From positions 1-36,433 of the forward strand of contig JABHUE010000127.1 in assembly GCA_018672825.1 (NCBI GenBank): DNA of 36,433 nucleotides, in the 5' to 3' direction. A program made the position numbers and the translations under genes. Source of the DNA: Pseudomonadota bacterium. Lineage in GTDB: Bacteria > Pseudomonadota > Gammaproteobacteria > Arenicellales > UBA868. A model generated the notes under the pieces. It was not told the DNA's origin and searched no databases. It was given only the letters and a program-made list of their open reading frames with translations. Positions 23,941 through 24,864 of this stretch are shown one piece after another. The stretch's first letter is position 1; each line of letters opens with the position of its first letter.

Positions 23941-24624
23941 ATGAACCAGAGCGCACTTAATGGAATTAAGGCCTGTGTGTTTGACGCTTACGGCACACTA
24001 TTCGACGTGCACTCGGCTGTAGCCCAGCACACTCACCGGATGGCCAATGCGTCAATCGTGTCTATGCTTTGGCGAACCAAGCAACTGGAATACACGTGGC
24101 TGCGAACCCTAATGGGGCGGTACGTTGACTTTTGGCAGGTCACTGGGGATGCGCTCGATTTTGCTTTGGATACCCACGGTATTTCAGATTCACAACTTCG
24201 AGCTGATCTTATGCAGGCGTATCTTGGTCTTTCCTGCTATTTGGAAGTGCCGGAGGTCCTTAATGAATTGAAATCAAAAGATATCCGTTGCGCCATTCTT
24301 TCCAATGGCTCTCCAGATATGCTATCGGCCGCGGTAAACCATGCGGGCCTTGAGGCTTACTTTGATGCCGTGCTTTCGGTTGATGGTATTCGAATTTACA
24401 AGCCTGACCCCCGCGTGTATCAGCAGGCGGTTGATGCATTAGGAGTCGATGCGTCAGAAATCGCTTTTCACTCCTCGAACGCGTGGGACGCAGCCGGCGC
24501 TGATGCCTTCGGCTTCAGGGTCATCTGGGTGAATCGCTTCGATCAGAAAGCCGAGCGGTTGGGCACCTCGGTGGCTGCTGAAATAAAGGATTTATCCTCC
24601 TTGACGGGGTTGATCTTCAGCTAA
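23941..24624 (+). CDS. Haloacid dehalogenase type II (HAD superfamily)
   Basis: 227 residues. L-2-haloacid dehalogenases replace a halogen by hydroxyl through an aspartyl-ester intermediate. The nucleophile is Asp15 in VFDAYGTLFDV; the cap domain spans about residues 22-95; the Ser/Asn motif is CAILSNGSPDML, the Lys is in YKPDPRVYQ, and the C-terminal FHSSNAWDAAGADAFGFRVIWVNR block is the type II dehalogenase signature rather than that of a general phosphatase. The natural substrate is uncertain: marine halogenated acids or another small 2-substituted acid are both possible. No clear terminator follows before the metZ promoter. Confidence 0.87.
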   Translation: MNQSALNGIKACVFDAYGTLFDVHSAVAQHTHRMANASIVSMLWRTKQLEYTWLRTLMGRYVDFWQVTGDALDFALDTHGISDSQLRADLMQAYLGLSCYLEVPEVLNELKSKDIRCAILSNGSPDMLSAAVNHAGLEAYFDAVLSVDGIRIYKPDPRVYQQAVDALGVDASEIAFHSSNAWDAAGADAFGFRVIWVNRFDQKAERLGTSVAAEIKDLSSLTGLIFS

Positions 24625-24695: not shown

Positions 24696-24724
24696 TTGAC
24701 AGGACCCTGCCAAGTTGCTAGATT
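24696..24724 (+). promoter_or_regulatory. Sigma-70 promoter of metZ
   Basis: A perfect TTGACA (24696-24701), a 17-base spacer, then TAGATT (24719-24724, 4/6). The predicted start, around 24731, falls at the first base of the riboswitch P1 helix, which fits an RNA leader of about 130 bases. Confidence 0.65.
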
Positions 24725-24727
24725 CCG

Positions 24728-24786
24728 CTTAGCGCCGATTTGAATATCAGCTTGCGGGCGCTTAAGAAATACGGCTAAAGCGAGGC
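24728..24786 (+). promoter_or_regulatory. SAM-II (SAM-alpha) riboswitch aptamer
   Basis: The P1 helix is AGCGCC (24731-24736) with GGCGCT (24757-24762). The loop opens with GATTTGA (24737-24743), and TTGC lies just before the P1 return strand. The downstream strand has GAAAT (24766-24770), GCTAAA (24774-24779) and GAGG (24782-24785). These elements occur in the same order and spacing as in the metX SAM-II aptamer crystallised from a marine metagenome, compared from memory. A pseudoknot pairing is available between GCTT (24750-24753) and AAGC (24778-24781). The gene downstream, metZ, is a methionine-synthesis gene, the typical SAM-II target. A covariance-model search would settle it. Confidence 0.85.
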
Positions 24787-24794
24787 TTATCGGT

Positions 24795-24829
24795 ACCCCG
24801 CTTCAGCCCCGACTGCAGTGGGTTTTTTT
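24795..24829 (+). terminator. Riboswitch-controlled intrinsic terminator before metZ
   Basis: The 5' arm (24795-24806) and 3' arm (24813-24823) pair as ACCC/GGGT, GCT/AGT (one wobble) and CAG/CTG, with a bulge and a mismatch, around the loop CCCCGA. Seven T follow (24823-24829). The 5' arm CCCCGCTT (24796-24803) can instead pair with AAGCGAGG (24778-24785) of the aptamer: seven pairs and one mismatch. The two structures exclude each other, so SAM binding would favour termination. Confidence 0.75.
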
Positions 24830-24864
24830 GTGCCCTGCGCTCGACCGGATTAAGGAGACAGGTT

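Follow-up and report, generated by a model that had tools for sequence, protein, structure and literature searches.

The leader of metZ in this gammaproteobacterial genome raises the question of how the gene is controlled, and whether that control is as exceptional as it first appeared. A preliminary description of the window, i.e., the whole stretch of 36,433 nucleotides that was analysed, had placed a SAM-II riboswitch coupled to an intrinsic terminator in front of metZ, and had called the arrangement unusual and possibly due to horizontal transfer of the leader or of metZ. The results presented here indicate that the metZ leader very probably carries a SAM-II riboswitch that works as a transcriptional OFF switch. 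Taken singly, the element is ordinary, a switch of a familiar type that is common in the lineage.

All positions in the preliminary description proved correct, each element lying where it had been placed (Table 1). Between 24696 and 24865 the order is promoter, SAM-II aptamer, switching strand, seven-T terminator, ribosome-binding site and then metZ, whose identity was confirmed by profile scores of 633.7 bits for NF006003 (cut-off 522), 523.1 bits for TIGR01325 (cut-off 510) and 446 bits for PF01053. Transcription would start at about 24730-24732, at the foot of P1, and a similarly placed promoter (at least 8/12 matches) is present in 51 of the 63 distinct leaders of the set, the shuffled mean being 7.4. 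Within the aptamer, the P1 helix, originally drawn as TTAGCGCC (24729-24736) with GGCGCTTA (24756-24763), the GATTTGA loop and the short blocks GAAAT (24765-24769), GCTAAA (24774-24779) and GAGG (24782-24785) were all found in SAM-II order. By analogy with SAM-II, the loop would provide the third strand of the SAM-binding triplex.

Table 1. Features of the metZ leader, in window coordinates.
Feature	Position	Strand	Basis or remark
Sigma-70-type promoter, TTGACA-17-TAGATT	24696-24724	+	Pattern scan, 10/12 consensus; 1 found vs 0.1 expected
Promoter hexamers TTGACA and TAGATT	24696-24701 and 24719-24724		17-nt spacer, TG before second hexamer
SAM-II aptamer	24728-24785	+	R1 76.1 bits, E 2.2e-17 genome-wide; RF00521 29.6 bits, E 9.3e-5 genome-wide
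P1 5' strand, CTTAGCGCC	24728-24736	+	Pairs with 24756-24766; fold and relatives' alignment
Conserved loop L1, GATTTGA	24737-24743	+	GATTTG invariant in 43 aligned relatives
P2 (pseudoknot) 5' strand, GCTTGC	24749-24754	+	Pairs with GC.AA.GC of 24774-24781
P1 3' strand, GGCGCTTAAGA	24756-24766	+	Fold and relatives' alignment
Switching strand, GGCTAAAGCGAGG	24773-24785	+	P2 3' strand and anti-terminator 5' arm; GCTAAA invariant
P2 3' strand, GCTAAAGC	24774-24781	+	Part of switching strand 24773-24785
Anti-terminator 3' arm, CCCCGCTTCAGCC	24796-24808	+	Overlaps terminator 5' arm
Intrinsic terminator	24797-24829	+	CCCGCTTCAG 24797-24806, loop CCCCGA, CTGCAGTGGG 24813-24822, T7 24823-24829
metZ ribosome-binding site, AAGGAG	24852-24857	+	Sequence; outside aptamer and terminator
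metZ, O-succinylhomoserine sulfhydrylase, 404 aa	24865-26079	+	NF006003, TIGR01325, PF01053; regulated gene

A search with the Rfam model RF00521 (SAM_alpha), which had been proposed as a check, gave a divided answer. The match to the leader is significant (29.6 bits, E 4.3e-5, or E 9.3e-5 genome-wide) and has no rival elsewhere in the genome, where the next best score is 14.5 bits, but it falls under the gathering score of 36 bits, which is a database convention and not a structural feature. For this reason, a default Rfam scan of the window reports nothing. The low score arises because the Rfam model is shaped by the alpha-proteobacterial GUGG/CCAC P1 and by a long, GC-rich P2a. A covariance model built from 43 relatives with the window left out (R1; 57 positions) scores the window at 76.1 bits, with E-values that are only approximate owing to a short calibration; as some of the training sequences come from close same-genus relatives, this score measures membership of the lineage's element. 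The element belongs in SAM-II because some members of the R1 set pass Rfam's own threshold: with RF00521, homologous same-genus leaders score 39.2 and 36.3 bits, the higher value being that of the metZ leader L009, whose MetZ is 72% identical to the window's. On these model-based and comparative grounds, the stretch 24728-24785 is the aptamer of a real, well-conserved SAM-II riboswitch, and the aptamer identity originally claimed for it holds. Two related classes were tried and rejected. The SAM-II long-loop model (RF01726) reached 16.4 bits (E 1.1) against a gathering score of 44, and SAM-V gave no match in the leader even at E≤10. SAM-V and tandem SAM-II/SAM-V RNAs have a related pseudoknot and bind SAM almost alike (PMC6061858, PMC9481103), but SAM-V acts on translation.

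Conservation among the 43 relatives points to the same fold. P1 has six pairs, with 97.7% of cells paired and two-sided changes at four of the six, and across alpha and gamma sequences its pair types include CG, UA and GC. The window's P2 also comprises six pairs (GCUUGC with GC.AA.GC), of which the four core pairs are kept in at least 42 of the 43 rows and never or almost never vary; the two outer pairs, kept in 35 and 21 rows, do vary. As the core is invariant, covariation alone is no proof of P2 and lends it little support of its own. Taken together, P1 and P2 have a covariation score of 0.190 against 0.074 for shuffled alignments (0/500 as high), and 92.6% of their cells are paired, compared with 29-55% (maximum 54.7%) when the partner strand is slid. 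The nucleotides conserved in SAM-II, namely GAUUUG, the UU of the P2 5' strand and GCUAAA, are present in the window and invariant or nearly so in the relatives. The covariation check set out in the preliminary description was thus borne out for P1 and for the anti-terminator, where pair types change on both sides, but not for the pseudoknot core, which hardly varies. Folding the leader without constraints gives a minimum energy no better than that of shuffles (z -0.22), a comparison that is uninformative because such folding cannot represent a pseudoknot.

The element shares with RF00521 SAM_alpha the P1 helix, the GAUUUGA loop, a P2 with GCUAAA, a promoter a few nucleotides 5' of P1, an intrinsic terminator after P2 and a methionine gene 3' of it. 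It differs in its sub-threshold score, in a P1 that reads GCGCC/GGCGC and not GUGGU/GCCAC, and in P2a, which is almost absent from the window (duplex of -0.1 kcal/mol; median of the order -0.3), whereas the median of 19 alpha-proteobacterial sequences is -8.2 kcal/mol; the strand is engaged in an anti-terminator instead. The window's element belongs to a lineage-wide subtype in which P2a hardly exists because the P2 3' strand is taken up by the anti-terminator. A P2a of 5 bp occurs in about 60% of SAM-II RNAs, and the crystallised metX RNA has 2 bp (PMC6061858), so that a short P2a lies within the class, to which the extension is not essential.

The switch itself lies at the 3' end of the aptamer. 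The facing strands AAGCGAGG (24778-24785) and CCCCGCTT (24796-24803) had been recognised from the start, and the real pairing turned out to be longer, joining 24773-24785 to 24796-24808. The hairpin of GGCTAAAGCGAGG with CCCCGCTTCAGCC has 11 of 13 positions paired and a predicted energy of -13.3 kcal/mol, and the duplex of switching strand and tail, at -15.9 kcal/mol, is equalled by just 21 of 2000 dinucleotide shuffles. For the terminator CCCGCTTCAG/CTGCAGTGGG, which ends in seven T as described, the predicted energy is -11.3 kcal/mol; a terminator is recognisable in 56 of the 65 leaders of the set, the window counted among them. Both hairpins can be folded in 44 distinct leaders, and in every one of them the anti-terminator excludes P2 as well as the terminator, taking 3 nt or more from the P2 3' strand and 4 nt or more from the terminator 5' arm; this count alone is not independent evidence, since the method searches for such a hairpin. 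Compared with shuffled tails, 80% of 46 leaders do better at p≤0.05 (median z -2.8). From leader to leader, the base before GCUAAA (offset -1) forms a G-C, U-A or C-G pair in the anti-terminator, and the eighth base of GCUAAAGC (offset +7) a C-G or A-U pair. In co-transcriptional folds P1 appears first and then the anti-terminator, before the terminator. By prediction and comparison, the expression platform consists of a terminator and a mutually exclusive anti-terminator, and both this arrangement and the pairing of P1 are conserved in relatives.

Sequence, models and comparison give an aptamer homologous to SAM-II, two mutually exclusive pairings, the promoter and terminator patterns and the gene; the class suggests that SAM is the ligand and that its binding would trigger the switch. 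Transcription would begin at the foot of P1. When SAM is scarce in the cell, GGCUAAAGCGAGG (24773-24785) would pair with CCCCGCUUCAGCC (24796-24808), so that the terminator would be blocked and the polymerase would reach metZ. With enough SAM, the strand 24773-24785 would be held around the ligand in the P2 pseudoknot with GCUUGC, and the terminator arm CCCGCUUCAG would be free to pair with CUGCAGUGGG, leading to a stop in the seven U. The first gene is metZ in 32, a betaine-homocysteine methyltransferase gene (BHMT) in 27 and metK in one of the 60 leaders, out of 65, in which one of these genes comes first. The order of promoter, P1, pseudoknot and terminator is that given by Corbino et al. 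(PMC1273637). The metZ SAM-II of Sinorhizobium meliloti has the gene, the class and a predicted SAM-dependent terminator in common with the window, and a matching RNA of about 100 nt is up in a rich-medium, high-SAM condition (PMC9373788); it belongs to an alphaproteobacterium and was studied by Northern blots and reporters, whereas the window is known from sequence alone.

Other readings of the leader have to be weighed against this one. Some SAM-II RNAs act on translation, among them the one of metA in S. meliloti (PMC9373788) and the metX RNA that was crystallised (PMC6061858), and SAM binding might mask the metZ ribosome-binding site while transcription continues. This is very unlikely at a locus where that site lies about 67 nt past the aptamer and outside it, where a seven-T terminator stands between the two, and where a terminator is recognisable in most leaders of the set. 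The hairpin might also be the ordinary terminator of the upstream gene, a HAD hydrolase with its stop at 24622-24624, with an aptamer-like sequence that does not act on it; the genes upstream do run in the same direction. The promoter sits between that gene and the hairpin, however, and the series of promoter, aptamer and terminator turns up again ahead of metZ, BHMT and metK in very different gene neighbourhoods, which renders the idea extremely improbable. Equally hard to credit is a SAM-II fold that senses another ligand, such as SAH or some derivative of methionine. Variation outside the core is seen in SAM-II-like RNAs, and the window lacks the P2a extension, but GATTTG, the TT of GCTTGC and GCTAAA, which form the core around the SAM site of SAM-II and SAM-V (PMC6061858), show little or no variation among the 43 relatives, and the downstream genes are methionine and SAM genes.

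The conserved signal could, finally, reside on the other strand, as an antisense small RNA. The Rfam family RF02424 (Bp2_287), described as the Burkholderia sRNA Bp2_Cand287_SIPHT (PMC3521395), matches the minus strand of the window at 24699-24828 (21 bits, E 0.0073), and this strand too folds into a terminator-like hairpin. The score is far under the RF02424 gathering score of 70 bits, however; promoter, SAM-II core, terminator and metZ are on the plus strand, and RF02424 matches elsewhere sit opposite SAM-II elements. An antisense RNA is scarcely conceivable on this evidence, and the transcriptional SAM-II riboswitch is the reading that we adopt.

The idea that such a riboswitch is unusual in Gammaproteobacteria did not survive wider sampling. 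With R1, the element was found in 70 of 100 relatives (E≤0.001), among them every one of the 19 same-genus genomes searched and 12 of the 13 from the same family. RF00521 has matches in 65 of the 100 relatives at E≤0.1, some of them weak chance matches, and in five over its cut-off; twelve low-scoring matches without the SAM-II core, most at 21-23 bits and one (L110) at 27.3, were excluded. In a class sample of 369 evenly drawn genomes, R1 finds the element in 178 (E≤1e-4) and RF00521 in 109 (E≤5e-4), or in 30 over its cut-off, in runs with different E-value limits and with counts that pool gamma and beta, as the class probably includes the beta-proteobacteria (GTDB). Named loci before metZ occur in MAGs of Gammaproteobacteria (L066), Methylophilaceae (L071) and Rhodobacteraceae (L076), at 44.7-72.2 bits, and weakly in one of Nitrosomonadales (L064, 25.2 bits). 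A pattern search of Marinobacter metZ leaders returned no SAM-II core, so that the element is not universal beside metZ. The window's own genome has a second SAM-II (L193; G000:C165:6338-6393, minus strand; R1 67.0 bits), with a hairpin and T-run downstream, before a BHMT gene; RF00521 missed this copy, giving a false impression of a single copy in the genome.

Gammaproteobacterial cases had also been published. Corbino et al. (2005) found SAM-II mostly in alpha-proteobacteria, with few in other proteobacteria and Bacteroides (PMC1273637), SAM-II outside the alpha-proteobacteria, usually coupled to terminators, was reported in 2007 (PMC2258182), and Meyer et al. list the class in alpha, beta and gamma (PMC2704228). 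Together with the S. meliloti report (PMC9373788), these studies leave nothing new in the host group or in the coupling to a terminator, and the labels of unusual and horizontally transferred both fall. A recent transfer of the leader or of metZ from an alphaproteobacterium would agree with the first description of SAM-II in that group (PMC1273637), and Barrick and Breaker held transfer possible for scattered gamma cases (PMC2258182). It is nevertheless highly improbable, and was rejected on distribution, given the same-genus and same-family counts above and the presence of the element in about half of the class. Furthermore, the window's P1 reads GCGCC/GGCGC, whereas sampled high-scoring alpha sequences mostly have GUGGU/GCCAC, P2a is strongly different, and the closest named relatives found for MetZ are nearly all gammaproteobacterial (about 60% identity, against 36-41% for alphaproteobacterial ones).

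Variant copies were observed in several relatives. Tandem arrangements occur at L198 (G052), L200 (G026), L201 (G016), L203 and L206 (G014) and L205 (G006), where a short-loop SAM-II with its terminator is followed by a second SAM-II-like pseudoknot with the consensus CCGCC..RTTTAA..ACAACTTRC..GGGCGG..GYTAAAGCG; in most of these second copies a G-C pair of P2 has become A-U, with both sides changed. In L200, L201, L203 and L205 the next gene is rhodanese-like and encodes about 150 aa. Tandem SAM-II is already known (PMC9481103); in the literature consulted we found no description of the rhodanese link or of the variant second pseudoknot. The window's own genome retains only the second, variant aptamer at L204 (G000:C40:10756-10813, minus strand), a weak third copy (R1 23.3 bits) with an apparent terminator remnant upstream and no rhodanese gene. 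An unexpected neighbour was seen at L109 and L206 (G014) and at L231 (G710), where the longest ORF after SAM-II encodes an AAA ATPase, MoxR-like by eye. At L219 (G618) the element precedes a gene resembling metF, by eye, and at L223, L232, L240 and L241 the same kind of element stands before metK (BLAST).

RF02424 matches were observed opposite SAM-II riboswitches at L215-L244, at L245 and in the window. In the class sample, 38 of 42 RF02424 matches overlap a listed R1 match, 38 of 38 on the opposite strand, and three of the four others (L233, L235 and L243; G659 left out) have an opposite-strand R1 match (34.5 bits). The SAM-II core pattern is present on the other strand in 30 of 31 fetched RF02424 loci, with mostly metZ or metK as the next gene. 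L245 (1501-1703), at 107.5 bits the sole RF02424 match found over its cut-off, reads on its other strand TGCGTC-GATTTGA-GATCAGCTTGC-GGACGC, a 30-nt hairpin insert, CAGCTAAAGCG, a T6-ending terminator and a MetZ-like gene, whose protein is 52.9% identical to the window's MetZ; RF00521 has no match on L245 at E≤1. A hairpin insert between P1 and GCTAAA was seen in L233, L235 and L245, and such an insert breaks the match to the 57-position R1, so that further members are probably hidden. Matches to Bp2_287 coincide with SAM-II elements of the window's kind before metZ or metK; the family itself is catalogued as an opposite-strand sRNA. From these sequence overlaps, RF02424 is probably the reverse complement of the beta/gamma SAM-II leader.

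A further likeness concerns the metXZ element of Leyn et al. (2014), found in beta-proteobacteria before metX or metZ, in which conserved blocks form a pseudoknot that is followed by a terminator and a proposed anti-terminator, and which was not assigned to SAM-II (PMC4239095). Compared by description, the two have in common the metX/metZ leader, the pseudoknot, the terminator and the anti-terminator, and judging from that description and from L245 the beta-proteobacterial element is probably the same RNA. In the literature consulted we found no statement that equates RF02424 or the metXZ element with SAM-II. It seems likely, overall, that there is a beta/gamma SAM-II subtype that lacks P2a, uses its P2 3' strand as an anti-terminator, is carried by roughly half of the species in the class, is mostly missed by Rfam, and is identical with the metXZ element and the wrong-strand Bp2_287.

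The resulting annotation gap may matter. The standard Rfam scan is blind at this locus, and in the class sample the 178 genomes found with R1 compare with 109 for RF00521 at a permissive limit and 30 at its cut-off; when methionine control in Proteobacteria was surveyed in 2014, SAM_alpha was recorded in Rhizobiales and Rhodobacterales alone (PMC4239095). Should RF02424 indeed represent the reverse strand of the riboswitch, the family would have to be re-stranded and merged. In that case, expressed RF02424 'sRNAs', e.g., RIT77 in Burkholderia (PMC10987360), may be leader transcripts of metX or metZ cut short by termination.
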